A stretch of 64,000 bases of DNA, from assembly GCA_032622095.1 (NCBI GenBank), contig CP136062.1:62001-126000 (forward strand), given 5' to 3'. Within the stretch, counting starts at the first letter, position 1. Each line of letters begins with the position of its first letter. The notes under the pieces were generated by a model. The model was not told where the DNA came from and searched no databases. It was given only the letters and a program-made list of their open reading frames with translations. The DNA is from Siphonodentalium dalli. Its lineage: Eukaryota; Mollusca; Scaphopoda; Gadilida; Siphonodentaliidae. The position numbers and the translations under genes were made by a program. Shown here piece by piece: positions 22,406 through 62,600 of the stretch.

Positions 22406-22619
22406 AGTGTATCATTCCAGTTAGTGCTGGCTTCAGACGGAACTCATTCGTATGCCGGATTCCTTTACAGAGAATCTACCTTGACAAGGATACCCGGGAG
22501 ACATTACATCATAGGGTACTACCAAACACCACAAGATGCCAATAAAAACTTCTTCAATCACCCTCGTTCTAATTCTGTGTGGGCGCTTAAAATGCATGAG
22601 TCCTACGATAGAACAATTG
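22406..22619 (+). CDS. Exon of MUC4-like protein: NIDO domain segment
   Basis: An internal exon of 71 codons plus one base. The acceptor TTTTGTTTTGCAG ends at 22405, and the donor G|GTGAGT begins at 22620 (exit phase 1). The peptide has FQLVL at residues 4-8, SDGTHSYAGFLY at 10-21, IPGRHYIIGYY at about 29-39 and SNSVWALKM near 57-65. This fits the NIDO (nidogen-like extracellular) domain: hydrophobic strand, aspartate-glycine turn, aromatic strand, and a Ser-Asn...Trp motif near its end. NIDO immediately precedes AMOP and VWD in MUC4-type membrane mucins. Upstream exons (signal peptide, mucin region) are not in view; the preceding sequence is repeat. The spacing between the conserved blocks is shorter than in typical NIDO, so the assignment rests partly on the AMOP and VWD exons downstream. 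Confidence 0.72.
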
Positions 22620-22752
22620 GTGAGTATGATAGAATAACTAGTAATTATGTGTGGGCGCTCAAAATGTATGACTCCTATGATAGAACAATCAGCGAGTATG
22701 ATAGAATAACTAGTAATTATGTGTGGGCGCCCAAAATATGATAGAAGTGAGT
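22577..22752 (+). repeat. 72 bp in-frame duplication of the NIDO donor edge
   Basis: GTGTGGGCGC recurs at 22577, 22649 and 22721, a 72 bp period (24 codons). The first copy contains the true donor G|GTGAGT at 22620. In the second copy the GT has become GC (CAGCGAGTATG); the third keeps a GTGAGT at 22747. The duplicated units read open in the exon frame (VWALKMHESYDRT-type) until a stop at 22739-22741. Confidence 0.8.
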
Positions 22753-23348
22753 ATATGACAAATACATTTGTCTCAAAATATGAAAATATGATGCTGGATA
22801 TATGGGAGACTTTCATATATAAGAGAATGCATTGGCTTACAAGGTCAAGGTAAATATTGTTATGGCATTTATTGCATTCTCTTATATATGGGAGGCTTCC
22901 TATGAGAGACTCGCATATACAAGAGAATGCATTAGCACATGGTTTTCACAAAATTTCAGGAAGCTCCTGTCATCAAAGGGATAACGCTGTTTAAACAAGA
23001 AATTCAATTAATTGAGGAAAAACACCCACTGTCCTGAGTGGTACTATTGATAAGCTATGGGGGGGGGGGGTCTACCACTTCGCATGCAAAATAACACGAA
23101 TGACACCAACAGCTTGGATGTGTGAGAATAATCCACCATATATGGTAGATATTCAACCAGACTGTGCTTAAGTTTCTCAATTGGTGACTGATGTACATAT
23201 ACAGTACACACAAATAGTAATAACAATTAACGTTGTGATTTTGAAATTAACCATGCTAGAATATTGACGGTAAGGTGGTGTTAACTACTACGAGCATAAT
23301 AATAGTACTATTCTTTTATAATATATGTGGGCATGATGTATGGAAATA
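22753..23348. other. Intron: small foldback, G-run, no gene seen
   Basis: TATATAAGAGAATGCATT (about 22817) and its inverted copy ATTGCATTCTCTTATATATG (about 22870) form a short hairpin. A third direct copy lies near 22915. A G10 run occurs at 23060. No coding signal was recognised. Confidence 0.5.
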
Positions 23349-23836
23349 TTAAAGGTACTCAATCCGATAAAACTCATCTCAATTACTATTTCAATGGCTT
23401 CGGGGGTCAAAAATATTTGATTCGAGTCGAGGAAGTCACCCATCAAAGCTCAGATTTGTTAGATATGATCAGATATCGATTTTAGAAATCTATTATTGTT
23501 CATTATCGGGAATTCTTTCTGGCCCAGAAGACATTCAAAATTGCGTACCCTGATTATAGAGTTATTCATCCTTGTCTGTTTGAATAGAGTTTTGGCGTAA
23601 AATCTCGAGCAGGTTACCAAATTGACGGCAGTTATTAGTACTCATCTCGAGCAATTAACAAATTTCAAAAATCAATATCTAATAACTCTGAGCTTTGTTT
23701 GATGGTTTCCTCGACTCGAATCAAATATTTTTTACCCCCAAAGCCAAAGAAATAGTAATATAGGACACTCTGATCGGATTGTTGTTGTTGGAATCTGTTG
23801 AGATGTGGACCCTCTTTTTGGATTGAGTACCTTTAA
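23349..23836. mobile_element. Foldback MITE flanked by TTAA
   Basis: The ends TTAAAGGTACTCAATCC and GGATTGAGTACCTTTAA are perfect inverted repeats and include TTAA at both extremities. Longer subterminal inverted segments are visible (ATTTGATTCGAGTCGAGGAA near 23418 against its complement near 23713). There is no coding capacity. TTAA flanks suggest a piggyBac-type target site, but TIR class cannot be settled by eye. Confidence 0.65.
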
Positions 23837-23884
23837 AGGACAAACCAATAGTTACAATACAATTATAACTGGTTTTTTTTAATT

Positions 23885-24330
23885 AAGAGCAAGAAGAGCT
23901 AATTGTGCTTAAGCACAATAAGGGATATTCCTTATTGCGCTTATAAGCTCAATAAGGGAATCTCTATTGTGCTTAAGCGCAATAAGGGAATATTTAATTG
24001 CGCTTAAGCGCAATGAAGAATATTCAAATTTCGCTGATAAAGCCTAATAATGAATCTCTTATTAAAGAATAATATATTATATATAGTACATAAACTCCTT
24101 ATAATACAGATGGTGTAGTCCATCTCCATTCTCCATGGCACAATGGGTGGAACAAATATAGGATTATTCTACTATTTGCAGAAGGGTGATCTAATGAGAG
24201 ATATATTAATTGTGTTAAAGTGGAATGGGAAGTAATTGCGGTTAAGCATAATAAGGAATGTCTTATTGCATTCTCATTGGGCTTAAGCGCAATTAGAGAT
24301 TCCTTAAGTTATTGCGGTTAATCGAAATTG
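23885..24330. repeat. Cluster of short palindromes (TTGCGCTTAAGCGCAA type)
   Basis: At least four near-perfect palindromes of the form ATTGCGCTTAAGCGCAAT occur between about 23905 and 24015, separated by AAGGGAATATT-like spacers at roughly 30-45 bp. Further decayed copies lie near 24235-24325. Each could extrude a small hairpin. I do not recognise the family. Confidence 0.65.
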
Positions 24331-24680
24331 TCTATTAAATGTCAATTTTGATTCCCATAGAGATCATCAATGATGTCTATGCGCAAGGGCGACGTGCCAA
24401 TCTTCTCTATTGGGATTCCAATTGTTGGCTCATTAAATATGCACATATGCTTAAGATACAGTCGCGCATGAAGCGCGCTCCCGTAAGTCGGGTTTTGGAT
24501 CCCAGTTAATGAAAATATTATTGAAATAATCGGTTTTCCCCAATAAACAACCATATATTCAATAAACATGTTTTGGAGCAGAATTAGGCAGTCCATATTG
24601 GACGCCATCATGGAATTTATTTTTTTTGGTTTAATTTTCACACATATTTATTAGTTATGTGGATGGAGTTCTCATTAAAC
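24331..24680. other. Intron stretch, nothing recognised
   Basis: Contains a short GC-rich inverted motif (GCGCATGAAGCGCGC near 24465) and otherwise no gene, tandem repeat or clear TIR. Confidence 0.4.
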
Positions 24681-25195
24681 CTCACATCCTTATATTGGTT
24701 ACAGTATTGCCCAAAGTAATTGACCACTTAACCACATCAGAATTATTGGTAATTTTTCAAGATTTAAAATCCTGAAAAATTACCAATAATTATGCTGTGG
24801 TTAAGTGGTCAATTACTTTGGACATTACTGTACGAGGATTGAGTTATCATTACACCTCAAATCCTTATATTGGTCACAGTAATGCCCAAAGTAATTGACC
24901 ACTTAACCACAGCAGAATTATGGGTATTTTTTCAGCATTTAAAATCCTGACAAATTACCCATTATTATGCTGTGGTTAAGTGGTCAATTAATTTGTACAT
25001 TACTGTATGAGGATTGAGTTATCATTACACCTCAAATCCTTATATTGGTTACAGTAATGCCCAAAGTAATTGACCACTTAACCACAGCAGAATTATGGGT
25101 ATTTTTTCATCATTTAAAATCCTGACAAATTACCAATAATTATGCTGTGGTTAAGTGGTCAATTACTTTTGACATTACTGTATGAGGATGGAGTT
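24681..25195. mobile_element. Three tandem copies of a palindromic Tc1/mariner-like MITE
   Basis: Near-perfect palindromes lie at 24702-24830, 24877-25005 and 25052-25180. They begin CAGTAATGCCCAAAGTAATT (CAGTATTGCC in the first) and end in the complement ...CATTACTG. TA flanks both sides of the first and third copies. CAGT ends and TA target sites are typical of Tc1/mariner elements. The 175 bp period includes 46 bp of flank (ATGAGGATTGAGTTATCATT and onward), so the MITE was triplicated together with neighbouring DNA after insertion. Confidence 0.8.
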
Positions 25196-25399
25196 AAACC
25201 TCACATGAGTGTGTTGGGGATTTGGACCTTGACTTGGGATCTTTTGTTTTTAACGCGACAAATGCGCATACACCTTATACACAAATTTCTTATGTAACCA
25301 GAGTTTTTCTTGGATAAGATGAGTTTGAAGCCTGCTTACATTTCAAAATGTCGTCAGTTTTATATTGTCTGCAGCGGAACTCAACGCGTTGAAGCAAAA

Positions 25400-26100
25400 G
25401 TTACAAAAGATAAAATGTGTATGTAACGAGACTATAATACAACTGAAAAAATAAATTCAGGGAGGGGTGGGCGATACAGGGAACTAAGGGTTGAACCGAT
25501 ATAAATTTGTAGAGCAATAACGACCAATGTTGACACTTTATGCATCTGAACTCAGAGATCAACTCTACTGTTGCAACAAGGTTGGTTATATGGACTCGGA
25601 GAAAAAGTGGTTTGTATCGATGAACTGACATAAATTAGTGGAGCGATGTTGCATCGCGACTGTACTAAAGCAGCAATGATATCAAATTGGGGGGGGGGGG
25701 GGGGTATGAAATTATCTATCTCTATAGATGGCACCAGGATTATATAGAAAGGAATAGCAATTGATATACGTATACGGTATACTATAGTAATACCATAGAC
25801 AAATAAGTGCAAGTATCACATGATAAAATATTACGTAACGTGACTATACCGATGAAAGAAATAAATAAATTGGACCGGGTTTAGAGGTTGGGTTGGTTAT
25901 GGAATTGGATATGGAATTCATACCGATGGAACGATACAAATTAGTGGAGCGATAAAGACCAATGTTGACATTTAGTCAGGCTACGCGGGAGAAAATAGGG
26001 GTTGATACGATGGACCGAAATAAATTTGTCGGGTGATAATGTCCAATGTTGACCTATAAAGTAACGCGACTGTACTGTCGGATAATTATCAGGTGTAACC
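25400..26100. repeat. Diverged tandem repeats, about four copies
   Basis: A motif like GATACAAATTAGTGGAGCGA followed by AAGACCAATGTTGACATTT recurs near 25497, 25621, 25930 and 26027, preceded by ACGTAACG(T/A)GACTATA-like sequence. Copies are unequal in length and strongly diverged. A G14 run interrupts the set at 25689-25702. No gene was recognised. Confidence 0.55.
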
Positions 26101-26155
26101 GGTCAAATATGGACTCTAGTGAACAATATAGAACAGCTCAGAAAACATTCGCAGG

Positions 26156-26705
26156 GTGCTAAAATTTATTTAACACCGCATTTGCCATTAAAATTGATTT
26201 ATATCGATAAAACTGTCATTTTTCAAAATTTTAAGCTGAGACTTGGAGTGTGTGGGTGGGATACCTACATATTCCTAAAATGACAGAGTACAGCACGTAA
26301 TTATGTTTTAGATGGAAGAAATGAATTTTTTTCAATGATAAAATTTAACATGGAATTTACCATTAACATCGATTTATGTCGATAAAACTGTCTTTTTTCA
26401 AACCTTTAGGCTGAGACTTGGTGCATGTGCGTGTGTTACATATATGTTCCTAAAATGACAGAGTCCATCGCGTAATTATGTTTTAGATGGAAGAAATTGA
26501 ATTTTTTTTCGATGATAAATTTTAACATGGAATTGTCCCATTCAATTTCAAATCTATTTATGTCGATAAAACTGCTATTTTTCAAAAATTTAAGCCGAGA
26601 CTCGGTGTTTCTGCGTGGAATACCTATATATTCCGAAAACGGCAGGGTTAAGCACGTAATTATCTTTTAGATGGAAGAAATTGATTTGTTTCGATGATAA
26701 AAATC
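26156..26705. repeat. Three tandem copies of a ~179 bp unit
   Basis: Copies start near 26160, 26339 and 26517. Shared landmarks in order are ATTTATGTCGATAAAACTG, AAGC(T/C)GAGACT(T/C)GG, TTCCTAAAATGACAG and ATGTTTTAGATGGAAGAAAT. They are moderately diverged, so the duplication is old. Confidence 0.75.
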
Positions 26706-27060
26706 CAGCGTAAAATAATCGCCAATGGAGTCTTCGCTTCGCATGGTTGGCAATTATCACGATACACAGGGAACACTTTGACGTTCGTACTCATTTTTCA
26801 CCAATTTTTGTACCTGGCTTTCCAATCCTAAGTTTCAAGGGGAAATGTCTAATTTTACTCTATTTGTCGTTATATACATATTATACATATTTATCACATA
26901 ATTTGGCCATAAAAGCAGTTTCATAATTATCGGTAATAGACACGTTTAATATCAGCGCGTGCGATGACGTCACGGCGTTCTTCAGATAACTTGCGATCGC
27001 TGTAGTGTATGATTGTTGTTGTCGATGAATATTTCGCGTTGCTTCGGGTTTATTTGATCA
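26706..27060. other. Intron stretch with a CRE-like palindrome
   Basis: No gene was recognised. TGACGTCA occurs at 26965-26972 inside GCGATGACGTCACGGCG. It matches the cAMP response element palindrome but may simply be part of an unrecognised transposon. Confidence 0.4.
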
Positions 27061-27229
27061 TGTGATAAAAGGTATCTCACACTCGTCCTATTTTATACGT
27101 AATTTATCAACCTCGTCCTCTAAATTATATTTGAGCCTCGGTAAACCTCGGCTCAAATCGAATTTAGTGAACTCGGTTGATAAATTCCGTATAAAATAGG
27201 AACTCATGTGAGATCCTCTATTTATCACA
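27061..27229. mobile_element. Foldback MITE of 169 bp
   Basis: Almost the whole element is an inverted repeat. TGTGATAAA...TCTCACA and TCCTATTTTATACG at the left are matched by CGTATAAAATAGGA, TGTGAGA and TTTATCACA at the right, with GAGCCTCGGTAAACCTCGGC near the loop. No coding capacity. Confidence 0.7.
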
Positions 27230-27706
27230 CCATTTATTATTCATTTTCATAAAAATAAAAAAAAAGAAGCCGAAGATGACATGTTTAAACTGTTTGAAGC
27301 ACGAATTTGGCGATAACTTATCAGAGTACGTTATACTTGTGATAGTTACGTTACGCTCACGTGTTCCAATATCCTATTGCGATAATCGCTTAACCCTTCA
27401 GTTTTCAACGGCATTTCAATTGGTTGAAATTAAAATTTCTCAAGTTCCAGCTCAACACGAATCTAGTGACCTAATTGGTAGAAATACTTTAGCAGTAATT
27501 CTTAGTTTTATAAGTCATAACTCTAATTTTATTGACGATACGAGCTCAACATCATAATATGTCACTGTTTATGGCGGTGTTATCCAAACGTGTGCTTTGA
27601 TAATGGTTATAATTTTATTTTGCGATCAAACGTCAGTGCAGCCCAGCAGAAACGCATAGGTACTAGTTCAATTCAGCAGAAACGCATAAGTCCTACGATT
27701 ATAGTA

Positions 27707-27744
27707 CACCCACTGAACGCGCTTCGCGCGTTGGTCAGTGGGTG
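27707..27744. repeat. Strong GC-rich hairpin
   Basis: CACCCACTGA-ACGCGC is followed at once by GCGCGT and TCAGTGGGTG, a 38 bp almost perfect palindrome with a CTTC loop region. It could be the end hairpin of a degraded transposon or a cruciform. No neighbouring gene supports a terminator role. Confidence 0.6.
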
Positions 27745-27938
27745 AAAAAACAGATGATAAACGTTTTTCTGACACGATAAACAAGTAAATGAGATGTAGA
27801 AATTCACAATGCACTAAAAAATTTATGAAAAATCATTTATAACTGAAATTTACAAGAAAAATAAGAATGAAATGTATCCCGATTTTGAACATTTTAATTT
27901 ATGTTTGTCAAATTCACATAATCCCTCTGACTTGTAAG

Positions 27939-28020
27939 TAACCCACAGAGAGCCCCACATAGAGTGGAGCAGACGGCACTCTATGGTGCATCCTTCCATC
28001 TGTGTGGGGCTCCCTGTGGG
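27939..28020. mobile_element. Solo MITE2 (the Sat-B progenitor type)
   Basis: TAACCCACAGAGAGCCCCAC at the left is inverted at the right as GTGTGGGGCTCCCTGTGGG. The interior CGTCTGCTCC (reverse strand) matches the Sat-B core. This is an isolated copy, not tandem. Confidence 0.7.
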
Positions 28021-28074
28021 ATGTGTGCATGTGTATCCAGGCCTGATTTGTAAGTACAATGTGTATGTACCATA

Positions 28075-28125
28075 CAGTATTGTCCTAAATAATCGACTCC
28101 TTAACCATATTTCTGCTGAGTGGTT
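28075..28125. mobile_element. Truncated Tc1/mariner-like MITE end
   Basis: CAGTATTGTCCTAAATAATC plus GACTCCTTAACCAT, preceded by TA, matches the termini of the elements at 30286 and 63769. The other end is missing. Confidence 0.6.
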
Positions 28126-28172
28126 GATCTGTGTTCACCTGGGTTTGTGGTGAATGGTATCCGTTAAATAAC

Positions 28173-28925
28173 CTCACCATGAAGTAACCAGTCTATACTA
28201 TAGATCACACCATGAAGTAACCAGTCTATAATATAGGTCATACCATGAAGTAACCAGTCTATCCTATAGGTCACACCATGAAGTAACCAGTCTATACTAT
28301 CGATCACACCATGAAGTAACCAGTCTATACTATAGATCACACCATGAAGTAACCAGTCTATAATATAGGTCATACCATGAAGTAACCAGTCTATACTATA
28401 GATCACACCATGAAGTAACCAGTCTATACTATAGATCACAACATGAAGTAACCAGTCTATACTATAGATCACACCATGAAGTAACCAGTCTATAATACAG
28501 GTCATACCATGAAGTAACCAGTCTATACTATAGATCACACCATGAAGTAACTAGTCTATACTATAGATCACACCATGAAGTAACCAGTCTATAATATAGG
28601 TCACACCATGAAGTAACCAGTGTATACTATAGATCACACCATGAAGTAACCAGTCTATAATATAGGTCACACCATGAAGTAACCAGTCTATAATATAGGT
28701 CACACCATGAAGTAACCAGTCTATACTATAGATCACACCATGAAGTAACTAGTCTATACTATAGATCACACCATGAAGTAACCAGTCTATAATATAGATC
28801 ACACCATGAAGTAACCAGTCTATACTATAGATCACACCATGAAGTAACCAGTCTATACTATAGATCACACCATGAAGTAACCAATCTATACTATCAGTCA
28901 CAACATGAAGTAACCATTCTATTTA
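28173..28925. repeat. 33 bp minisatellite, about 22-23 copies
   Basis: The unit contains ACCATGAAGTAACCAGTCTA and TACTATAGATCAC and totals 33 bp (11 codons). It is therefore open on the minus strand with an IYSIDWLLHGV-type peptide, which is an artefact of period 33 and not a gene. It stops only about 26 bp before the AMOP-1 acceptor at 28951. Confidence 0.9.
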
Positions 28926-28951
28926 TATACATTTCTCCCTCGGTATTTCAG

Positions 28952-29190
28952 ATAAAACGGGCGTCATCATCTTGAAACTCACCCCACAGTCGCATCATGT
29001 TAATTATGGCGCACTGTGTAGGACATGGTACAGGGAAGAAAATGCAAAGCCAGAAAGAAGATTGTATAGCTATTATAGTCGACGGATGATATGTCCATGT
29101 TGGGAGCGGTGGATTATACTCGATTATCGTCTCATCTATACCGGATCCGGATGTTACATATTTCATTCTCCTTTCTACCCATATACAAAG
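28952..29190 (+). CDS. Exon of MUC4-like protein: AMOP domain, first part
   Basis: The acceptor TCGGTATTTCAG ends at 28951 and the donor CAAAG|GTAAATATT begins at 29191. The exon enters with two bases that complete the split codon left by the NIDO exon (G+AT, Asp) and leaves in phase 0. Landmarks are ILKLTPQSHHVNYG, then LCRTWYREENAKP, MICPCWERW and SGCYIF. A Cys-x-x-Trp-Tyr opening followed by a CPC motif and further cysteines is characteristic of AMOP, an extracellular, probably disulphide-rich adhesion-associated domain of MUC4-type proteins. LTP(x)nNYG...C matches the NIDO-to-AMOP linker of this family. The 33 bp minisatellite lies just upstream, and the 3' edge is duplicated downstream. 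Confidence 0.82.
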
Positions 29191-29600
29191 GTAAATATTA
29201 TATATATTGAGGGAATCACTCCCCCACCCCTATATATGATATGTTGGGAGCGGTGGATTATACTCGAGTATCATCTCATTTATACAGGATCCGGATGTTA
29301 CATATTCCATTCTCCTTTCTACCCATATACAAAGGTAAATATTATATATATTGAGAGAATCACTCCCCTCCATATATGATATGTTGGGAGCGGTGGAGTG
29401 CACTCGATTATCGTCTCATTTATACAGGATCTGGATGTTACATATTCCATTCTCCTTTCTGCCCATATACAAAGGTAAATATTATATATACTGAGAGAAT
29501 CACTCCCCCTACATATGATATGTTAATTGGGAGCGGTGTAGTGAACTCGATTATCATCTCATTTATGCATGATTTGGAGGTTACATATTGTTACATAGGT
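29088..29600 (+). repeat. ~140 bp tandem duplication of the AMOP-1 donor edge
   Basis: ATGATATG...GGGAGCGGTGGA recurs at about 29088 (true exon), 29237, 29377 and 29515. Copies 2 and 3 retain ATATACAAAGGTAAATATT, i.e. the donor, with exon-like ends at 29334 and 29474. Copy 4 is decayed and lacks it. The end of copy 2 is exactly 144 bp (48 codons) downstream of the true exon end and the frame is open through it. A stop follows at about 29377-29379 before the third donor can be reached. Confidence 0.85.
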
Positions 29601-29855
29601 TACATCCTGATGGTACATATAGAATACATGCATTGTGTTTCTGAATAATGAATTTAAACCAAGATAGGGATTGCCGATTTACCCAACAAGCTTTCAAGTT
29701 AGCGAGTCATAACTTTTTTCATTATAATTACCATGTTGTTTGCGCCGTTCATCGATGATAGAGCACATGAGTGTATTTTGCACTAATCCATGGCTCAAAT
29801 TCATTCATTTGTGTAACAGAATGAAAAAGAGAGGTTTGGAAGTCGGACCGAAAGT
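29601..29855. other. Intron stretch, nothing recognised
   Basis: No repeat, gene or TIR seen by eye. Confidence 0.4.
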
Positions 29856-29858
29856 TGG

Positions 29859-30720: not shown

Positions 30721-30914
30721 TTCTAGAGTTATCTTTTTTTGTTTTTGCATATGAATTTTGCTATGAGAATGAGATCGTGATGAGAATTATCTTTCTTTGT
30801 TTGTAGGCATATTGCTATCGGATTGAGATTCTGATTAGAAGTGCTCCTGGAGCTGGTGGTCTTATTACATGCTATGAGAATGAGATCGTGATTAGAGTTA
30901 TCTTTCTTTGTTTG
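30721..30914 (+). pseudogene. Displaced copy of the AMOP-2 exon 5' edge with acceptor
   Basis: TTATCTTTCTTTGTTTGTAG ends at 30806 and is followed by an exon-like stretch (GCATATTGCTATCGG onward to TCTTATTACA at 30869). This matches the start of the AMOP-2 exon at 35222, but the second cysteine of the Cys-Cys pair is kept while the first is Tyr. Homology then returns to pre-acceptor sequence (GAGAATGAGATCGTGATTAG), so copies were once in tandem. A more decayed copy precedes it at about 30721-30780. The frame stays open to 31058. Confidence 0.75.
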
Positions 30915-31632
30915 TTTTGTTTTATTGCGGTATCAAAGGATACCGAATTAAAATGGCTAATTACCCGAGTAATAACAAATCTGTGGTCGAAATTTACCAC
31001 GCTCGCTGCATATTTTCCCGGAAGTGGAGAGTGGGCGTGTCAGTCGGAAGTACATTAGCGAATCATGTATTGTATATAAACTGAACGATTGGATGAAATA
31101 AAAAGTGATTAAATAAATTAGAAAAGAACTTTATTACTTTGATCACATTAATTCGTGATAAAACAACAACGAATGATTATAGTGAATTAACAAAAATAAT
31201 TCAGAAATAGTGACAAATTGTAACTGACCTACAAATGGCAGCTTTTGATTGGTCTAAGAAAATTCCCGCGAAATATGAATCTCTGTCATTGTTCTTTTGG
31301 ACACAATACATGATTCGCCGATAGGTGCAGTCGCACTAAGTTTTACCCACCCTATAAAATTGTCCCACCCAATTAGAAGAATAATTATTAAAAACCAAAA
31401 ATATATTCAACAATGCAGGTTTATACAGTAGTACATGTATTCATTTAACGCATGATATGTATCTGTCCTATTTATTTTGTTCGCTTACATGTGTTTGTCC
31501 ATGTATTTGTCAAATGCGAGAATTGTGTTGTATGCATGATTGTGTTATTTTAGTTATCAATATTTACATAAAATATATTTCGGCCAACAAAGGAGTGTTA
31601 GTTTTAAATTTGTGCCACTCGGGTAATTGTAG
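30915..31632. mobile_element. Probable inserted element(s) splitting an AMOP-2 edge copy
   Basis: The pre-acceptor sequence stops at CTTTCTTTGTTTG (30914) and its continuation TAGGCATGTTG resumes at 31630. Near the edges, AATTACCCGAGT (about 30960) and ACTCGGGTAATT (about 31617) are inverted. Inside is a second inverted pair, GCGAATCATGTATTGT (about 31059) and ACAATACATGATTCGC (about 31303), so a second element may be nested. No coding sequence recognised. Confidence 0.6.
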
Positions 31633-31707
31633 GCATGTTGTTATCGGATTGAGATTCTGATTAGAAGTGCTCCTGGAGCTGGTGGTCTTATTACACAAGA
31701 AAACTAA
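31633..31707 (+). pseudogene. Second displaced copy of the AMOP-2 exon 5' edge
   Basis: After TAG at 31630-31632 the sequence encodes a Cys-Cys-Tyr start, then EILIRSAPGAGGLIT as in the true exon. It then diverges and reaches a TAA stop at 31705-31707. This is a truncated pseudo-exon without a donor. Confidence 0.75.
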
Positions 31708-34145: not shown

Positions 34146-34150
34146 TAATG

Positions 34151-35160: not shown

Positions 35161-35221
35161 AAATTGGCCGAAATGATATGAGAATGAGATCGTGATTAGA
35201 GTTATCTTTCTGTGTTTGTAG

Positions 35222-35429
35222 GCATGTTGCTATCAGAATGAGATTCTAATTAGAAGTGCTCCTGGAGCTGGTGGTCTTATTACACGAAATCCAATGTTTG
35301 ACCGAAATGGATGGATGCAAAACGATGTCATTCCTAAAGAAAACTGCTGCGAGAAATCCAACAACTGCCGCCTGTACTACCAGGTGCGACCAATCGGGTG
35401 GTGTTATCGCCGACCAACTTTCAGAATCA
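35222..35429 (+). CDS. Exon of MUC4-like protein: AMOP domain, second part
   Basis: The acceptor TTTCTGTGTTTGTAG ends at 35221, and the donor AATCA|GTAAGT begins at 35430. It enters in phase 0, matching the phase-0 exit of the AMOP-1 exon, and leaves in phase 1. The peptide begins ACCYQNE, then RSAPGAGGLITRN, DRNGWMQNDVIP, ENCCEKSNNCRLYYQVRPIG and WCYRRP. Cys-Cys pairs, an Asn-x-Cys-x-x-Tyr-Tyr and an Arg-Pro...Cys-Tyr-Arg-Pro ending are the hallmark C-terminal half of AMOP just before VWD. The first ~60 bp plus acceptor have pseudo-copies at 30807 and 31633, and the 3' edge with its donor is tandemly repeated downstream. Confidence 0.88.
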
Positions 35430-35832
35430 GTAAGTCAGTATTGTGTCGTGTAATCTGCAACCAACTTTCAGAATCAGTAAGTCAGTATTGTGTCGTGTAA
35501 TCTCCAACCAACTTTCAGAATCAGTAAGTCAGTATTGTGTCGTGTAATCTCCAACCAACTTTCAGAATCAGTAAGTCTCCAACCAACTTTCAGAATCAGT
35601 AAGTCAGTATTGTGTCGTGTAATCTCCAACCAACTTTCAGAATCAGTAAGTCAGTATTGTGTCGTGTAATCTCCAACCAACTTTCAGAATCAGTAAGTCA
35701 GTATTGTGTCGTGTAATCTCCAACCAACTTTCAGAATCAGTAAGTCAGTATTGTGTCGTGTAATCTCCAACCAACTTTCAGAATCAGTAAGTCAGTATTG
35801 TGTCGTGTAATCTCCAACCAACTTTCAGAATA
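35405..35832 (+). repeat. 47 bp tandem repeat of the AMOP-2 donor edge, about nine copies
   Basis: The unit combines CCAACTTTCAGAATCA (last exon bases) with GTAAGTCAGTATTGTGTCG (donor and first intron bases) and TGTAATCTC. Starts of CCAACTTT at 35413, 35461 and 35508 give 48 and then 47 bp. One copy near 35580 is shortened. The last copy (about 35820) keeps the exon part but has lost the donor. Each unit therefore shows CTTTCAG (acceptor-like) five bases before GTAAGT (strong donor). Confidence 0.92.
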
Positions 35833-35835
35833 TCA

Positions 35836-37499: not shown

Positions 37500-38243
37500 T
37501 ATATTGTATACCAGTACTCTAAAATGCGACTAATGATCGGTCAATCTGAGATAATGGCGAAACACAAAAATTATCAGATGCGATGCCGATCATATCGACA
37601 CCACAGACATTATTGAAGGAGACAAAGCTGTCATATTGACGAAAACAAATACGTCTGAAAAATACGGTGACAATGACGAAAAATTTATGAAAACTTGCAA
37701 TGTTATGGAATGTGATAAAATTATGACGAAAACACTGCTCATTTATTTTTTCCATATACGAAAATCATTTTGACATGACCCCTAATAAAATAGCATCTAT
37801 TACACAACATACTTGTATTCATCACAGTGAAGCGACTGTTTGGTACATCTATATACCAATTAACCCTTACACGGGAAGGTAGTACGAAAAATGGAAAAAC
37901 TACCTTCGACATCAATGGATAGAATTTACATTTGTTGATGAATTCATACGCTAGCAAAGAACACGTTATGTATAACACGACGGAGTGAGCTACTTCGCTT
38001 TCATTTCCATATACGATATGACTGTACGTTGAACCTGTATAAATGCTGCACTGAACACGACGCTGATTTATTATAAGCTTAAAGTAGACTCGGTATTTAC
38101 AAAAATAATTTCTATTTCCGCTGATTTATTCCATATAATCGGGATTATTTTGTATAAAGATGTAGGACTAGACACAAGGAATGTATTTGTGTGCTAAAAT
38201 ATTTCCACTTCTGATCAACATAACGAGGTAACAGATTGGTGTA
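37500..38243. other. Intron stretch before the 82 bp array, nothing recognised
   Basis: AT-rich. CCATATACGA occurs near 37753 and again near 38008. No gene or clear repeat boundary is visible until the first satellite copy. Confidence 0.4.
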
Positions 38244-41200
38244 GATAGATACTCATTTAATGATCTCATTTATTAATATTACAGTTGTATTGTGGGGTGA
38301 TCCACATATCGAGACGACAGATGGACGTATATACTCATTTAACGATCTCATGTATTAATATTACAGTTGTATTGTGGGGTGATCCACATATCGAGACGAC
38401 AGATGGACGTAGATACTCATTTAACGGTCTCATGTATTAATATTACAGTTGTGTTGTGGGGCGATCCACATATCGAGACGACAGATGGACGTAGATACTC
38501 ATTTAATGATCTCATGTATTAATATTACAGTTGTATTGTGGGGTGATCCACATATCGAGACGACAGATGGACGTAGATACTCATTTAATGATCTCATGTA
38601 TTATTATTACAGTTGTATTGTGGGGTGATCCACATATCGAGACGACAGATGGACGTAGATACTCATTTAATGATCTCATGTATTAATATTACAGTTGTAT
38701 TGTGGGGTGATACACATATCGAGTCGACAGATGGACGTAGATACTCATTTAGTGATCTCATGTATTAAAATTACAGTTGTATTATGGGATGATCCACATA
38801 TCGAGACGACATATGGACGTAGATACTCATTTAATGATCTCATGTATTAATATTACAGTTGTATTATGGGGTGATCCACATATCGAGACGACAGATGGAC
38901 GTAGATACTCATTTAATGATCTCATGTATTAATATTACAGTTGTATTGTGGGGTGATCCACATATCGAGTCGACAGATGGCTTAGATACTCATTTAACGG
39001 TCTCATGTATTATTACAGTTGTATTGTGGGGTGATCCACATATCGAGACGACAGATGGACGTAGATACTCATTTAATGATCTCATGTATTAATATTACAG
39101 TTGTATTGTGGTGTGATCCACATATCGAGACGACAGATGGACGTAGATACTCATTTAATGATCTCATGTATTAATATTACAGTTGTATTGTGGGGTGATC
39201 GACATGTCGAGACGACAGATGGACGTAGATACTCATTTAATGATCTCATGTATTAATATTACAGTTGTATTGTGGGGTGATCCACATATCGAGTCGACAG
39301 ATGGACGTAGATACTCATTTAATGATCTCATGTATTATTATTACAGTTGTATTGTGGGGTGATACACATATCGAGACGACAGATGGACGTAGATACTTAT
39401 TTACAGTCCCATGTACTAATATTACAGTTGTATTGTGGGGTGATCCACATATCGAGACGACAGATGGACGTAGATATTCATTTAACGGTCTCATGTATTA
39501 TTATTACAGTTGTATTGTGGGGTGATCCACATATCGAGACGACAGATGGACGTAGATACTCATTTAATGATCTCATGTATTAATATTACAGTTGTATTGT
39601 GGGGTGATCCACATATCGAGACGACAGATGGACGTAGCTACTCATTTAATGATCTCATGTATTATTACAGTTGTATTGTGGGGTGATCCACATATCGAGA
39701 CGACAGATGGACGTATATACTCATTTAATTATCTCATGTATTAATATTACAGTTGTATTGTGGGGTGATCCACACATCGAGACGACAGATGGACGTAGAT
39801 ACTCATTTAACGATCTCATGTATTAATATTACAGTTGTATTGTGGGGTGATCCACATATCGAGTCGACAGATGGACTTAGATACTCATTTAATGATCTCA
39901 TGTATTATTACAGTTGTATTGTGGGGTGATCCACATATCGAGACGACAGATGGACGTAAATATTCATTTAATGATCTCATGTATTAATATTACAGTTGTA
40001 TTGCGGGGTGATCCACATATCGAGACGACAGATGGACGTAGATATTCATTTAATGATCTCATGTATTAATATTACAGTTGTATTGTGGGGTGATCCACTT
40101 ATCGAGACGACAGATGGACGTAGATACTCATTTAACGGTCTCATGTATTAATATTACAGTTGAATTGTGGGTTGATCCACATATCGAGACGACAGATGGA
40201 CGTAGATACTCATTTAATGATCTCATGTATTAATATTACAGTTGTGTTGTGGGGTGATCCACATATCGAGTCGACAGATGGACGTAGATACTCATTTAAC
40301 GGTCTCATGTATTATTACAGTTGTATTGTGGGGTGATCCACATATCGAGACGACAGATGGACGTAGATACTCATTTAATGATCTCATGTATTAATATTAC
40401 AGTTGTATTGTGGGGTGATCCACATATCGAGACGACAGATGGACGTAGATACTCATTTAATGATCTCATGTATTAATATTACAGTTGTATTGTGGGGTGA
40501 TCCACATATCGAGACGACAGATGGACGTAGATACTCATTTAATGATCTCATGTATTAATATTACAGTTGTATTGTGGGGTGATCCACATATCGAGACGAC
40601 AGATGGACGTAGATACTCATTTAATGATCTCATGTATTAATATTACAGTTGTATTGTGGGGTGATCCACATATCGAGTCGACAGATGGACGTAGATACTC
40701 ATTTAATGATCTCATGTATTATTATTACAGTTGTATTGTGGGTGATCCACATATCGAGACGACAGATGGACGTAGATACTTATTTACAGTCCCATGTACT
40801 AATATTACAGTTGTATTGTGGGGTGATCCACATATCGAGACGACAGATGGACGTAGATATTCATTTAACGGTCTCATGTATTATTATTACAGTTGTATTG
40901 TGGGGTGATCCACATATCGAGACGACAGATGGACGTAGATACTCATTTAATGATCTCATGTATTAATATTACAGTTGTATTGTGGGGTGATCCACATATC
41001 GAGACGACAGATGGACGTAGCTACTCATTTAATGATCTCATGTATTATTACAGTTGTATTGTGGGGTGATCCACATATCGAGACGACAGATGGACGTATA
41101 TACTCATTTAATTATCTCATGTATTAATATTACAGTTGTATTGTGGGGTGATCCACACATCGAGACGACAGATGGACGTAGATACTCATTTAATGATCTC

Positions 41201-54000: not shown

Positions 54001-55386
54001 TACAGTTGTATTGTGGGGTGATCCACATATCGAGACGACAGATGGACGTAGATACTTATTTAATGATATCATGTATTATTATTACAGTTGTATTGTGGGT
54101 TGATCCACATATCGAGACGACAGATGGACGTAGAACTTATTTACTGTCTCGTGTTCTAATATTACAGTTGTATTGTGGGGTGATTCACATATCGAGACGA
54201 CAGATGGACTTAGATACTCATTTAACGGTCTCATGTATTAATATTACAGTTGTATTGTGGGGTGATCCACATATCGAGACGACAGATGGACGTAGATACT
54301 TATTTACTGTCTCGTGTACTTATATTACAGTTGTATTGTGGGGTGATCCACATATCGAGACGACAGATGGACGTAGATACTCATTTAATGATCTCATGTA
54401 TTATTATTACAGTTGTATTGTGGGGTGATCCACATATCGAGACGACAGATGGACGTAGATACTTATTTAATGATCTCATGTATTATTATTACAGTTGTAT
54501 TGTGGGGTGATCCACGTATCGAGACGACAGATGGACGTAGATACTCATTTAATGATCTCATGTATTATTATTACAGTTGTATTGTGGGGTGATCCACATA
54601 TCGAGACGACAGATGGACGTAGATACTCATTTAACGATCTCATGTATTATTATTACAGTTGTATTGTGGGGTGATCCACATATCGAGACGACAGATGGAC
54701 GTAGCTACTCATTTAATGATCTCATGTATTATTACAGTTGTATTGTGGGGTGATCCACATATCGATACGACAGATGGACGTATATACTCATTTAATTATC
54801 TCATGTATTAATATTACAGTTGTATTGTGGGGTGATCCACACATCGAGACGACAGATGGGCGTAGATACATATTTAACGATCTCATGTATTAATATTACA
54901 GTTGTATTGTGGGGTGATCCACATATCGAGTCGACAAATGGACTTAGATACTCATTTAATGATCTCATGTATTATTACAGTTGAATTGTGGGGTGATCCA
55001 CAAATCGAGACGACAGATGGACGTAAATATTCATTTAATGATCTCATGTATTAATATTACAGTTGTATTGCGGGGTGATCCACATATCGAGACGACAGAT
55101 GGACGTAGATATTCATTTAATGATCTCATGTATTAATATTACAGTTGTATTGTGGGGTGATCCACTTATCGAGACGACAGATGGACGTAGATACTCATTT
55201 AATGATCTCATGTATTAATATTACAGTTGTGTTGTGGGGTGATCCACATATCGAGTCGACAGATGGACGTAGATACTCATTTAACGGTCTCATGTATTAT
55301 TACAGTTGTATTGTGGGGTGATGCACATATCGAGACGACAGATGGACGTAGATACTCATTTAATGATCTCATGTATTAATATTACA
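51076..55386 (+). repeat. Higher-order duplication within the array (right copy)
   Basis: Counterpart of 45290-49600, about 4.3 kb long, with only scattered substitutions (for example GAGACTACAG for GAGACGACAG near 53300). The near-identity implies a recent event, or an assembly artefact. Confidence 0.75.
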
Positions 55387-58300
55387 GTTGTATTGTGGGG
55401 TGATCCACATATCGAGACGACAGATGGACGTAGATACTCATTTAATGATCTCATGTATTATTATTACAGTTGTATTGTGGGGTGATCCACATATCGAGTC
55501 GACATATGGACTTAGATACTCATTTAATGATCTCATGTTTTATTATTACAGTTGTATTGTGGGGTGATCCACATATCGAGTCGACATATGGACTTAGATA
55601 CTCATTTAATGATCTCATGTTTTATTATTACAGTTGTATTGTGGGGCGATCCACATATCGAGACGACAGATGGACGTAGATACTCATTTTATGATCTCAT
55701 GTATTATTATTACAGTTGTATTGTGGGGTGATCCACATATCGAGACGACAGATGGACGTAGATACTTATTTACTGTCTCATGTACTAATATTACAGTTGT
55801 ATTGTGGGGTGATCCACATATCGAGACGACAGATGGACTTAGATACTCATTTAACGGTCTCATGTATTAATATTACAGTTGTATTGTGGGGTGATCCACA
55901 TATCGAGACGACAGATGGACGTAGATACTTATTTAATGATCTCATGTATTATTATTACAGTTGTATTGTGGGGTGATCCACATATCGAGACGACAGATGG
56001 ACGTAGAACTTATTTACTGTCTCGTGTTCTAATATTACAGTTGTATTGTGGGGTGATTCACATATCGAGACGACAGATGGACTTAGATACTCATTTTATC
56101 GGTCTCATGTATTAATATTACAGTTGTATTGTGGGGTGATCCACATATCGAGACGACAGATGGACGTAGATACTTATTAACTGTCTCGTGTACTTATATT
56201 ACAGTTGTATTGTGGGGTGATCCACATATCGAGACGACAGATGGACGTAGATACTCATTTAATGATCTCATGTATTAATATTACAGTTGTGTTGTGGGGT
56301 GATCCACATATCGAGTCGACAGATGGACGTAGATACTCATTTAATGATCTCATGTATTATTATTACAGTTGTATTGTGGGGTGATCCACATATCGAGTCG
56401 ACATATGGACTTAGATACTCATTTAATGATCTCATGTATTATTATTACAGTTGTATTGTGGGGTGATCCACATATCGAGTCGACATATGGACTTAGATAC
56501 TCATTTAATGATCTCATGTTTTATTATTACAGTTGTATTGTGGAGCGATCCACATATCGAGACGACAGATGGACGTAGATACTCATTTAATGATCTCATG
56601 TATTATTATTACAGTTGTATTGTGGGGTGATCCACATATCGAGACGACAGATGGACGTAGATACTTATTTAATGGTCTCATGTATTATTATTACAGTTGT
56701 ATTGTGGGGTGATCCACATATCGAGACGACAGATGGACGTAGATACTTATTTACTGTCTCATGTACTAATATTACAGTTGTATTGTGGGGTGATCCACAT
56801 ATCGAGACGACAGATGGACTTAGATACTCATTTAACGGTCTCATGTATTAATATTACAGTTGTATTGTGGGGTGATCCACATATCGAGACGACAGATGGA
56901 CGTAGATACTTATTTAATGATCTCATGTATTATTATTACAGTTGTATTGTGGGGTGATCCACATATCGAGACGACAGATGGACGTAGAACTTATTTACTG
57001 TCTCGTGTTCTAATATTACAGTTGTATTGTGGGGTGATTCACATATCGAGACGACAGATGGACTTAGATACTCATTTAACGGTCTCATGTATTAATATTA
57101 CAGTTGTATTGTGGGGTGATCCACATATCGAGACGACAGATGGACGTAGATCCTTATTTACTGTCTCGTGTACTTATATTACAGTTGTATTGTGGGGTGA
57201 TCCACATATCGAGACGACAGATGGACGTAGATACTCATTTAATGATCTCATGTATTATTATTACAGTTGTATTGTGGGGTGATCCACATATCGAGACGAC
57301 AGATGGACGTAGATACTCATTTAATGATCTCATGTATTATTATTACAGTTGTATTGTGGGGTGATCCACATATCGAGACGACAGATGGACGTAGATACTC
57401 ATTTAATGATCTCATGTATTATTATTACAGTTGTATTGTGGGGTGATCCACATATCGAGACGACAGATGGACGTAGATACTCATTTAACGATCTCATGTA
57501 TTATTATTACAGTTGTATTGTGGGGTGATCCACATATCGAGACGACAGATGGACGTAGATACTCATTTAATGATCTCATGTATTATTATTACAGTTGTAT
57601 TGTGGGGTGATCCACATATCGAGACGACATATAGACGTAGATACTCATTTAATGATCTCATGTATTAATATAACAGTTGTATCGTGGGGTGATCCACATA
57701 TCGAGACGACAGATGGACGTAGATACTAATTTAATGATCTCATGTATTATTACAGTTGTATTGTGGGGTGATCCACATATCGAGACGTCAGATGGACGTA
57801 GATACTCATTTAATGGTCTCATGTATTAATATTACAGTTGTATTGTGGGGTGATCCACATATCGAGACGACAGATGGACGTAGATATTCATTTAATGGTC
57901 TCATGTATTATTATTACAGTTGTATTGTGGGTTGATCCACATATCGAGACGACAGATGGACGTAGCTACTCATTTAATGATCTCATGTATTATTACAGTT
58001 GTATTGTGGGGTGATCCACATATCGAGACGACAGATGGACGTAGATACTCATTTAATGATCTCATGTATTAATATTACAGTTGTATTGTGGGGTGATCCA
58101 CATATCGAGACGACAGATGGACGTATATACTCATTTAATGATCTCATGTATTAATATAACAGTTGTATTGTGGGGTGATCCACATATCGAGACGACATAT
58201 GGACGTAGATACTCATTTAATGATCTCATGCATTATTATTACAGTTGTATTGTGGGGTGATCCACATATCGAGACGACAGATGGACGTAGCTACTCATTT

Positions 58301-61300
58301 AACGGCCTTATGTATTAATATTACAGTTGTATTGTGGGGTGATCCACATATCGAGTCGACAGATGGACGTAGCTACTCATTTAACGGTCTTATGTATTAA
58401 TATTACAGTTGTATTGTGGGGTGATCCACATATCGAGACGACAGATTGACGTAGATACTCATTTAACGGTCTCATGTATTAATATTACAGTTGTATTGTG
58501 GGGTGATCCACATATCGAGACGACAGATGGACGTAGATACTCATTTAACGGTCTTATGTATTAATATTACAGTTGTATTGTGGTGTGATCCACATATCGA
58601 GACGACATATGGACGTAGCTACTCATTTAATGATCTCATGTATTAATATTACAGTTGTATTGTGGGGTGATCCACATATCGAGACGACAGATGGACGTAG
58701 ATACTCATTTAACGGCCTCATGTATTATTACTGTTGTATTGTGGGGTGATCCACATATCGAGACGACAGATGGACGTAGATACTCATTTAATGATCTCAT
58801 GTATTATTATTACAGTTGTATTGTGGGGTGATCCACATATCGAGACGACAGATGGACGTAGATACTCATTTAATGGTCTCATGTGTTAATATTACAGTTG
58901 TATTGTGGGGTGATCCACATATCGAGACGACAGATGGACGTAGATACTCATTTAATGATCTCATGTATTATTATTACAGTTGTATTGTGGGGTGATCCAC
59001 ATATGGAGACGACAGATGGACGTAGATACTCATTTAACGATCTCATGTATTATTATTACAGTTGTATTGTGGGGTGATCCACATATCGAGACGACAGATG
59101 GACGTAGATACTCATTTAATGATCTCATGTATTATTATTACAGTTGTATTGTGGGGTGATCCACATATGGAGACGACAGATGGACGTAGATACTCATTTA
59201 ACGGTCTCGTGTATTAATATTACAGTTGTATTGTGGGTTGATCCACATATCGAGACGACAGATGGACGTAGATACTCATTTAATGATCTCATGTATTATT
59301 ACAGTTGTATTGTGGGGTGATCCACATATCGAGACGACAGATGGACGTAGATACTCATTTAATGATCTCATGTATTAATATTACAGTTGTATTGTGGGGT
59401 GATCCAAATATCGAGACGACAGATGGACGTAGATACTCATTTAATGATCTCATGTATTATTATTACAGTTGTATTGTGGGGTGATCCACATATGGAGACG
59501 ACAGATGGACGTAGATACTCATTTAACGATCTCATGTATTATTATTACAGTTGTATTGTGGGGTGATCCACATATCGAGACGACAGATGGACGTAGATAC
59601 TCATTTAATGGTCTCATGTGTTAATATTACAGTTGTATTGTGGGGTGATCCACATATCGAGATGACAGATGGACGTAGATATTCATTTAACGGGGTCTCA
59701 TGTATTATTATTACAGTTGTATTGTGGGTTGATCCACATATCAAGACGACAGATGGACGTAGCTACTCATTTAATGATCTCATGTATTATTACAGTTGTA
59801 TTGTGGGGTGATCCACATATCGAGACGACAGATGGACGTAGATACTCATTTAATGATCTCATGTATTAATATTACAGTTGTATTGTGGGGTGATCCACAT
59901 ATCGAGACGACAGATGGACGTAGATACTCATTTAACGGTCTCATGTATTAATATTACAGTTGTATTGTGGGGTGATCCACATATCGAGACGACAGATGGA
60001 CGTAGATACTCATTTAACGATCTCATGTATTATTATTACAGTTGTATTGTGGGGTGATCCACATATCGAGACGACAGATGGACGTAGATACTCATTTAAT
60101 GGTCTCATGTATTAATATTACAGTTGTATTGTGGGGTGATCCACATATCGAGACGACAGATGGACGTAGATATTCATTTAACGGGGTCTCATGTATTATT
60201 ATTACAGTTGTATTGTGGGTTGATCCACATATCAAGATGACAGATGGGCGTAGCTACTCATTTAATGATCTCATGTATTATTACAGTTGTATTGTGGGGT
60301 GCTCCACATATCGAGACGACAGATGGACGTAGATACTCATTTAATGATCTCATGTATTAATATTACAGTTGTATTGTGGGGTGATCCACATATCGAGACG
60401 ACAGATGGACGTAGATACTCATTTAACGGTCTCATGTATTAATATTACAGTTGTATTGTGGGGTGATCCACATATCGAGACGACAGATGGACGTATATAC
60501 TCATTTAATGATCTCATGTATTAATATAACAGTTGTATTGTGGGGTGATCCACATATCGAGACGACATATGGACGTAGATATTCATTTAATGATCTCATG
60601 CATTATTATTACAGTTGTATTGTGGGGTGATCCACATATCGAGTCGACAGATGGACGTAGCTACTCATTTAACGGCCTTATGTATTAATATTACAGTTGT
60701 ATTGTGGGGTGATCCACATATCGAGACGACAGATGGACGTAGATACTCATTTAACGGTCTCATGTATTAATATTACAGTTGTATTGTGGGGTGATCCACA
60801 TATCGAGACGACAGATGGACGTAGATACTCATTTAACGGTCTTATGTATTAATATTACAGTTGTATTGTGGTGTGATCCACATATCGAGACGACAGATGG
60901 ACGTAGCTACTCATTTAATGCTCTCATGTATTAATATTACAGTTGTATTGTGGGGTGATCCACATATCGAGACGACAGATGGACGTAGATACTCATTTAA
61001 CGGTCTCATGTATTATTACAGTTGTATTGTGGGGTGATCCACATATCGAGACGACAGATGGACGTAGATACTCATTTAATGATCTCATGTATTATTTATT
61101 ACAGTTGTATTGTGGGGTGATCCACATATCGAGACGACAGATGGACGTAAATATTCATTTAATGATCTCATGTATTAATATTACAGTTGTATTGTGGGGT
61201 GATCCACATATCGAGACGACAGATGGACGTAGATATTCATTTAATGAGCTCATGTATTAATATTACAGTTGTATTGTGGGGTGATCCACTTATCGAGACG

Positions 61301-61514
61301 ACAGATGGACGTAGATACTCATTTAACGGTCTCATGTATTAATATTACAGTTGTATTGTGGGATGATCCACATATCGAGACGACAGATGGACGTAGATAT
61401 TCATTTAATGATCTCATGTATTAATATTACAGTTGTATTGTGAGGTGATCCACATATCGAGACGACAGATGGACGTAGATACTCATTTAATGATCTCATG
61501 TATTAATATTACAG

Positions 61515-61757
61515 TTGTATTGTGGGGTGATCCACATATCGAGACGACAGATGGACGTAGATACTCATTTAATGGTTTCGGCGAGTATCATCTCCTTAAA
61601 GTAGACAACAGCACGACTCAGATTGATATCCAAGCGAGAACAGGGTTTGCGCTGTCGAAGAACAACACTAAGGTTAATGCCACAGTGTTTACGGCGTGTG
61701 CCGGAAGCGATAATAACGGAGCCAGTTTCCACGTGGAACTCTCATCAAATAGAACAT
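61515..61757 (+). CDS. Exon of MUC4-like protein: start of VWD domain
   Basis: The acceptor ATATTACAG ends at 61514 and the donor ACAT|GTGAGT begins at 61758. The first two bases complete the codon split by the AMOP-2 exon (A+TT, Ile); exit phase is 1. The peptide opens VLWGDPHIETTDGRRYSFNG and continues FGEYHLLKVDN, then IQARTGFAL, NATVFTACAG and FHVELSSN. Gly-Asp-Pro-His-(Ile)-x-Thr-x-Asp-Gly...Tyr-x-Phe-Asn-Gly-x-Gly-(Glu/Asp)-Tyr is the classic start of a von Willebrand factor type D domain in the MUC4/SUSD2-like group. Only this copy of GDPHIETTDGRRYSFN continues into NGFGEY; all upstream satellite copies diverge right after FN. The first ~62 bases match the satellite consensus. Confidence 0.93.
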
Positions 61758-61859
61758 GTGAGTTAATTAGTTAGTTTATGATGCCGATATTTTGTCATTT
61801 GGTAACTACTAACTTTTTTTATTTTTTTGGGTGGTAAAATTGAATTTATTTGGTAAAAT

Positions 61860-62090
61860 ATGTTTCAGTGTAAATTTTATTCTTTTGTATGTATTTTTGG
61901 GGAGGGAGTGGGAGGGGGTCATCGAGGGGTAAATGATTTTAGGTATAAATTAATTATTTTATATGTATTTGGAGGGGATTTTGAGGGGTGTACCATTTGT
62001 AGGTATAAACTATATAAATTCATTTAAATGCATTTTTGTGGGGGTTGAATGTTTTTGGTAAAATCAGTTCTTTTGAGTACATATTGAGCG
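61860..62090. repeat. Degenerate ~85 bp G-rich repeats in the VWD intron
   Basis: TTTGTATGTATTTTTGGGGA, TTATATGTATTTGGAGGGGA and AAATGCATTTTTGTGGGGGT mark about three diverged copies, each preceded by AGGTATAAA-type sequence. Confidence 0.55.
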
Positions 62091-62099
62091 ATCATTCAA

Positions 62100-62471
62100 G
62101 CATTTAACATGTCATTTTATTTGTTCATCAGCGATGATTATCTATGTGATTGGGCATGGTATTTAAATGTCATTTTATTTTTTCATCAGCGATGGTTATT
62201 CATGACATTTAATGTGTAGTTTAATTTTTCCACAGGGATTGTTATCTATGTGATCGGTTATGGCATTTAATATCTCATTTTATTTTGTCATCAGCGATCG
62301 TTATTCATGACTTTTGATGCGTCAATTGTTTTCCTGCAGCCATAATTGTTGCTTTGTGGCTACATATAACATCTCATTTTATGTTTTTTCTTCAACAATG
62401 CTCAATTTATGTTTTTTCTTTGGCAATGTTTATTCATGACATTTACCATCTCGTTTTATGTTTTTCCTCAG
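62100..62471 (+). repeat. About eight decayed copies of the VWD-2 exon acceptor edge
   Basis: Pieces of the form CATTTTATTT...TTCATCAGCGATGATTATC recur with AG positions near 62131, 62189, 62235, 62294 and 62339, two copies without AG near 62391 and 62430, and the true acceptor at 62471. Spacing alternates about 58/46/59/45 bp, suggesting a ~104 bp double unit. Copies contain the acceptor and the first ~20 bases of the exon (CGATGATAATCTTTGTGA), then revert to pre-acceptor sequence. Confidence 0.82.
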
Positions 62472-62600
62472 CGATGATAATCTTTGTGAATGACCAGGAC
62501 AAAACAACAAATTTCTACAATAGTCAGGATTTTAATTACACTGAAACAAACATCATGGCGAAGCGCGTTAACGATTCCATCATCATGGTGCTTAATTCAG
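62472..62600 (+). CDS. Exon of MUC4-like protein: VWD domain continuation
   Basis: The acceptor TTTTTCCTCAG ends at 62471 and the donor TTCAG|GTAAAG begins at 62601. The first two bases complete the split codon (T+CG, Ser) and the exon leaves in phase 1. The peptide is MIIFVNDQDKTTNFYNSQDF followed by NYTETNIMAKRVNDSIIMVLN. It corresponds to the part of VWD after the GDPH block (strand, Asn-Asp turn, then a Val-x-(Asp/Asn)-(Ser/Gly) strand) as in MUC4-type VWD. Domain content is weaker on its own; intron phase, orientation and distance (714 bp intron) tie it to the previous exon. Confidence 0.78.

Follow-up and report, generated by a model that had tools for sequence, protein, structure and literature searches.

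Why should the edges of exons, together with their splice signals, be repeated in tandem in the introns that flank them? The question is raised by a 64,000-nucleotide stretch of the genome of the scaphopod mollusc Siphonodentalium dalli (C2:62001–126000, contig CP136062.1), referred to here as the window, which lies on a 235-Mb contig of a 2.23-Gb genome in nine contigs. The window holds five exons of a gene predicted to encode a NIDO-AMOP-VWD (MUC4-like) protein, and copies straddling an exon-intron junction occur at 6 of their 10 edges: the NIDO donor, the AMOP-1 donor, both the acceptor and the donor of AMOP-2, and the acceptors of VWD-1 and VWD-2. When the two following exons are included, 8 of the 14 edges carry such copies, 4/7 acceptors and 4/7 donors. 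At a probability of roughly one half, we favor ordinary and frequent local tandem duplication that is filtered by splicing, with this gene being a repeat-dense place that also has an unusual tolerance of acceptor copies. Tandem copies that straddle a junction are fairly common across this genome, and donors and acceptors taken together need no mechanism that aims duplications at junctions.

The gene and its probable working splice sites

The exons were placed by splice signals, phase, Pfam domain matches and alignment to P0001, a protein of the gastropod Batillaria attramentaria and the sole protein relative found in the search. Positions are those of the window unless a locus is named.

22406–22619, + strand: NIDO exon (splice signals, phase; Pfam NIDO 21.8–24 bits, just below the cut-off of 25)
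28952–29190, + strand: AMOP-1 exon (splice signals, phase)
35222–35429, + strand: AMOP-2 exon (phase; alignment to P0001 gap-free at the 3′ junction)
61515–61757, + strand: VWD-1 exon (Pfam VWD 26.6–27.8 bits, cut-off 22.9; alignment to P0001)
62472–62600, + strand: VWD-2 exon (splice signals, phase, alignment to P0001)
L035:941–1138: VWD-3 exon (outside the window, within the next 10 kb)
L035:7940–8185: C8 exon (outside the window, within the next 10 kb)

Spliced in phase, the seven exons give 492 codons with no stop. Residues 149–489 align at 35% identity over 359 columns with P0001, itself a protein with VWD and a MUC4-like C8 domain. The alignment covers the five exons from AMOP-2 to C8, leaves the NIDO and AMOP-1 exons outside, and is free of gaps at the junctions AMOP-2/VWD-1, VWD-1/VWD-2, VWD-2/VWD-3 and VWD-3/C8. 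Because the seven exons join in phase and the alignment is gap-free at these junctions, the copy attached to the exon is likely to be the working splice site at each repeated edge. Pfam support for the NIDO-AMOP-VWD architecture differs among the domains, with VWD above the cut-off, NIDO just below it and AMOP unmatched. The Pfam AMOP search gave no match for the AMOP-1 exon, and a genome search with PF03782 (AMOP) listed C5 and C9 and not the gene in the window. The name given to the gene depends in part on the labels of the initial annotation, a reading of the letters of the window that preceded this analysis.

Copies across the exon junctions

The junction-straddling repeats and related features in the window are given below; their copy numbers include the real, exon-attached copy.

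22570–22737, + strand: NIDO donor repeat, 72 bp × 2.3, straddles the donor
29097–29589, + strand: AMOP-1 donor repeat, about 140 bp × 3.5, straddles the donor; three donors in all
30724–30915, + strand: remnants of an AMOP-2 acceptor array, unit about 110 bp; copies at 30759–30869 and 30869–30915
30959–31628, no strand: putative insertion splitting the AMOP-2 acceptor array; 12-bp inverted repeats at 30959–30970 and 31617–31628
31627–31696, + strand: AMOP-2 acceptor with exon start, further copy, 94% over 70 bp
35174–35284, + strand: AMOP-2 acceptor unit joined to the exon
35401–35831, + strand: AMOP-2 donor repeat, 47 bp, straddles the donor; nine exact donors including the real one
38212–38262, + strand: decayed unit adjoining the 82-bp array on its 5′ side, 76% identity, E 4e-7
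38263–61574, + strand: 82-bp array at the VWD-1 acceptor, 286 units including the real exon start
62094–62400, + strand: VWD-2 acceptor copies, about five recognizable, decayed

The initial annotation had named six repeated edges, and arrays detected by Tandem Repeats Finder (TRF) together with comparisons of the edges confirm straddling copies at all six. It had also described the copies as being of mixed age, from decayed to near-identical, which is borne out. At the VWD-2 acceptor the decayed copies are present, in a number of about five instead of the approximately eight claimed. The pattern extends beyond the window as well: the C8 acceptor is straddled by a 106-bp × 8.4 array, and a decayed copy accompanies the C8 donor (score 41 versus a maximum of 28 in 300 shuffles). 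For the remaining four edges in the window, no copy is seen out to 1.5 kb (scores 16–20). One of them, the NIDO acceptor, has a single distant match of score 38 at 35.9 kb, consisting mainly of its pyrimidine run. Unrelated arrays stop short of the NIDO and AMOP-1 exons, 21 bp and 29 bp upstream, respectively.

The largest of these repeats is found at the VWD-1 acceptor. Each 82-bp unit comprises 22 bp of intron end, with the acceptor, and 60 bp of exon start, so that the first 60 bp of the VWD-1 exon are part of the last unit of the array. There are 125 distinct units among the 286, and the last one, the real exon start, is identical to the consensus. Exact identity between units is most frequent at a lag of 71 (21% of pairs), followed by lags of 109, 12 and 38, and this long-range periodicity points to block amplification. 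The displaced copies of the AMOP-2 acceptor look like a tandem array of about 110-bp units that was separated by later DNA, the 12-bp inverted repeats of the putative insertion sitting between the second and the third copy. At AMOP-1, use of the second donor (29334 versus 29190, +144 nt) would add 48 in-frame codons that are stop-free to the end of the next exon; the repeat could therefore give a longer isoform.

Donors and acceptors in a genome sample

Exons of 100 loci (30 myosin head, 50 kinesin and 20 tyrosine phosphatase) were grouped by paralogy into 79 clusters, none of which was left out. From each exon end, 75 bp were searched against the neighboring 620 bp of intron at a score threshold of 40, a comparison that does not depend on exact placement of the edges. 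The genes of this sample are of a class unlike that of the studied gene, several exons can come from one gene, and the exon ends derive from domain matches; donors were placed by hand for the hits only, after the hits had been seen.

Copies were found at 8 of the 79 donors, seven by script and L106 by eye, and at none of the 79 acceptors (P = 0.006 for donor versus acceptor side). Two weak acceptor-side scores, 37 at L057 and 36 at L102, fall below the threshold and were not counted. The eight donor clusters are L011/L013 of the myosins, L066, L090, L097, L102 and L106 of the kinesins, and L072 and L078 of the phosphatases. L078 is a weak case, its unit including about 11 bp of exon (by eye); the best copy of L097 is about 560 bp away. 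Together with a paralogue on C5 described below, these clusters make nine other places in the genome with the pattern. Pattern scans of viral contigs found none.

What frequency should be expected at an edge depends on the control. Any copy is found for 8.2–9.4% of 1314 intron segments per side. What we consider the fairest control is the intron segment that is itself an end copy, with a copy on one side only, because an array that includes an exon edge must terminate there. By this measure 4.4–5.7% of 1120–1354 intron segments qualify. Against a rate of about 5%, the two kinds of edge together (8/158) show no excess (P = 0.54), and the acceptors (0/79) lie below the control (P = 0.01–0.03). 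Local repeats thin out toward the acceptor, from 9.9% at 301–600 bp and 6.3% at 101–300 bp to 1.6% at 31–100 bp and 0.8% at the edge. On the donor side the same bins, from the edge outward, hold 8.6, 10.8, 12.5 and 7.9%.

The gene departs from the sample above all at its acceptors. Straddling copies are present at 4/7 of them versus 0/79 in the sample (P = 1.6e-5); like for like, the figure is 3/7 (P about 3e-4, by hand). Its surroundings are also denser in repeats, a nearby copy being present for 35% of its intron segments versus about 13–14% in the sample. The gene is an outlier even in these dense surroundings, and the denser repeats account for its donor excess in part only.

Earlier tests in which the edges were placed by a simple splice-site scorer gave no enrichment and are superseded, since edges scoring under 0 had been dropped and the donors of L072, L090 and L106 misplaced or dropped. 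They had returned 3/105 edges (controls 5.9 and 9.2%), 1/37 (control 4.1%) and 4–5/135 (control 8.2–8.3%). In terms of arrays, there were 2 at 96 edges (expected 0.90 as events, 4.2 by coverage) and 2–3 at 135 edges (expected 1.4–1.5 as events, 6.9–7.1 by coverage). As a separate observation, the intron preceding a kinesin exon holds a 37-bp × 11.7 array (L102:1–432) that, by eye, is similar to the exon's own interior (LGNVIS region), which hints at copying of exon interiors besides edges.

Paralogues and surroundings

The paralogous genes, which the initial annotation had put forward to be checked first, answer in part. In an AMOP-bearing paralogue on C5, the second AMOP exon has its acceptor straddled by a 45-bp × 22 array. 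The other C5 edges inspected (the L001 donor, L002, and the VWD exon in L036 by eye) are without copies, as is the paralogue on C9 (L003, L004), where the L003 acceptor may be misplaced, yet no TRF array lies near that exon.

The window is within 126 kb of the contig start, and its density of repeats may be explained by a probable position near a chromosome end. Blocks of 122-, 129-, 130- and 131-bp tandem arrays recur often at 1–22035, in what appears to be a higher-order satellite-like or mobile-element array, and an array of 15/25-bp units of the type TGTAGTCCGTAAATA lies at 63050–63712.

A proposed explanation: tandem duplication filtered by splicing

The reading that we favor can be put as a sequence of steps. 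In a duplication-prone genome, minisatellites would arise by ordinary local tandem duplication, through slippage or unequal exchange. Where a duplication spans an exon edge, the copy still joined to the rest of the exon would stay a functional splice site and the extra copies would land in the intron. Copies of a donor edge would be nearly neutral. Copies upstream of an acceptor would bring in competing AGs or disturb the branch-point region and be removed; the lack of acceptor copies in conserved genes fits selection against such likely harm to splicing. In the studied gene, a repeat-dense place near the contig end combined with an unusual tolerance of copied acceptors would let both kinds accumulate, and one tolerated acceptor array would have expanded to 286 units. 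The tolerance may reflect weak constraint, low expression, strict exon definition or a local cause. The three nulls applied to the gene disagree. By repeat coverage, with 26–36% of positions in local repeats, 5/10 edges do not stand out (P = 0.09–0.28), and 8/14 gives P = 0.013–0.088.

Several results weigh against ordinary duplication as a sufficient cause. When arrays are counted as events, junctions are straddled by 4 of the 12 TRF arrays in the gene versus an expectation of 0.5–1.0 (P = 0.0005–0.01), and 6 of the 12 touch an exon or lie within 40 bp of one (P = 0.0007). In the like-for-like test, 6/14 edges (3/7 donors and 3/7 acceptors) have a copy versus 1.0–1.4 expected from the end-copy control in the gene (7.3–10.1% of 316 intron segments, per side and threshold). 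The AMOP-2 acceptor, whose copies are too distant, and the C8 donor, whose score there of 36 is below 40, do not count as hits in this test; the excess claimed for this gene thus persists under a matched control. The P values for this gene are flattering, since it was picked post hoc for its odd look. In the sample, the donors stand about twofold over the end-copy control (P = 0.02–0.08; 7/79 without L106, P = 0.06–0.16). Six TRF arrays straddle hand-placed donors (L011, L066, L072, L090, L102 and L106; L078 and L097 are outside this set), the expectation being 0.98 with the 79 donors (P = 5e-4) and 1.97 with all 158 edges (P = 0.015). The donors of the gene, at 3/7, also exceed the 8/79 of the sample (P = 0.04; 4/7 with the decayed C8 donor, P = 0.006). 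Finally, the comparison is with another gene class, and the cause of the tolerance of acceptor copies is conjectural.

Taken together, these figures suggest a donor bias of two- to sixfold, on few cases, some of them hand-placed after being seen. The idea in the initial annotation that duplication chooses splice junctions may hold to that extent for donors, at an excess of uncertain weight that is twofold by segments or sixfold as arrays; it finds no support over the two edges together or at acceptors, which show a deficit.

Possible duplication directed to splice junctions

Alternatively, duplications may be biased to splice junctions, donors foremost, through R-loops, transcription-linked repair or template switching on pre-mRNA, with acceptor copies being purged in conserved genes. 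This is the strongest competitor, possible though unlikely on the present counts. The array and segment figures for the sample donors and the excess in the gene speak for it. On the other side stand the absence of an excess over both edges and the donor frequency itself, which is not above the total repeat coverage of introns (8.2–9.4%); the numbers are also small and come from hits placed by hand. Moreover, the units differ in their exonic and intronic shares, from 60 + 22 bp at VWD-1 to about 29 + 18 bp (by eye) at the AMOP-2 donor, and no fixed breakpoint shows. A broader version, in which splice junctions are the preferred duplication sites of this animal, donor copies persisting in all genes and acceptor copies being removed from conserved genes yet retained in this one, is somewhat more doubtful. 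If it were true, the spliceosome would have to choose reliably the last of up to 286 near-identical acceptors.

Less likely alternatives: survivorship and selection for decoys

An apparent preference can also be produced by survivorship. Copies attached to an exon are easier to recognize, as the exon is conserved, and arrays in mid-intron may be thinned out or interrupted by mobile elements, which do not settle close to exons. The apparent splitting of the AMOP-2 acceptor array by an insertion fits this account, as does the fact that the decayed arrays came from searching the edges first. We nevertheless consider it a rather poor explanation: four arrays were detected by TRF, which is blind to exons, several donor arrays in the sample are near-identical, and repeat density on the donor side does not rise toward the exon.

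The initial annotation had further raised selection for decoy sites. In a fuller form of this idea, the copies would be kept by selection as decoys or as regulatory splice sites, throttling expression via premature stops for instance. AG is kept in 285 of the 286 units of the 82-bp array, and all 279 VWD-1 decoy acceptors tested run into a stop ahead of the next donor (the real one was number 280 of the starts tested, and 6 units without the motif used were outside the test). Use of the extra AMOP-2 donors would likewise lead to a stop in 8/8 cases. The 12 columns around the VWD-1 acceptor have about 2 rare variants versus about 6 on average, which may reflect a weak constraint. The AG columns themselves vary as expected, however, with 1 rare variant, about the column average (hand arithmetic). 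Decoy selection was rejected as the main cause. By eye, the second copy of the NIDO donor has GC instead of GT, and sites are lost in some VWD-2 and AMOP-2 acceptor copies. Selection of this kind is improbable as an account of the pattern.

Inflation of the arrays by misassembly is more improbable still: long arrays are difficult to assemble, but 125 distinct units in the largest one and short straddling repeats at other places speak against it. Least probable of all, and rejected, is intron gain by tandem duplication of AGGT-bearing exon sequence (the Rogers model), since duplicated exon sequence with a splice signal does adjoin the introns, but each unit carries a donor or an acceptor in use and never both (by eye), and the introns are mostly other sequence, the VWD-1 array excepted.

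Significance and comparison with known systems

The gene offers natural material on how an acceptor is chosen among many near-identical in-line sites, for which minigenes are the usual approach. Comparing donor copies with acceptor copies in one genome would gauge the selection that guards each end of an intron, and if the donor excess holds genome-wide, gene structure would be linked to the birth of minisatellites. For annotators the locus carries a warning, as a repeat-rich genome can hold many splice sites that are perfect in sequence and presumably unused.

Related cases have been described. In the duplications of ATP2A1 and potato RdRp, splice signals are also carried along by tandem duplication (PMC4974935); there a new intron results, whereas in the present gene introns that already exist become longer, through copying of only one of their two sites. 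A precedent is human CBS. Its 844_845ins68 allele is a 68-bp duplication of an intron-exon junction in which splicing is reported to favor the distal copy strongly (PMC2630376). That allele has a single extra copy and is polymorphic in people, whereas here an acceptor unit is present 286 times. The 31-bp variable number of tandem repeats (VNTR) of CBS, c.1444_1467+7(16_21), is reported to have 16–21 copies, and by its coordinates the unit covers the exon end and the first 7 bases of the intron (PMC2630376). As in a junction-spanning minisatellite of the CBS type, the units in the scaphopod gene are head-to-tail and hold exon and intron sequence across the junction, and the exon-attached copy is predicted to give an open reading frame when spliced. 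The CBS VNTR concerns one edge of one gene; in S. dalli, 8 of 14 edges are involved, with units of 47–140 bp and up to 286 copies.

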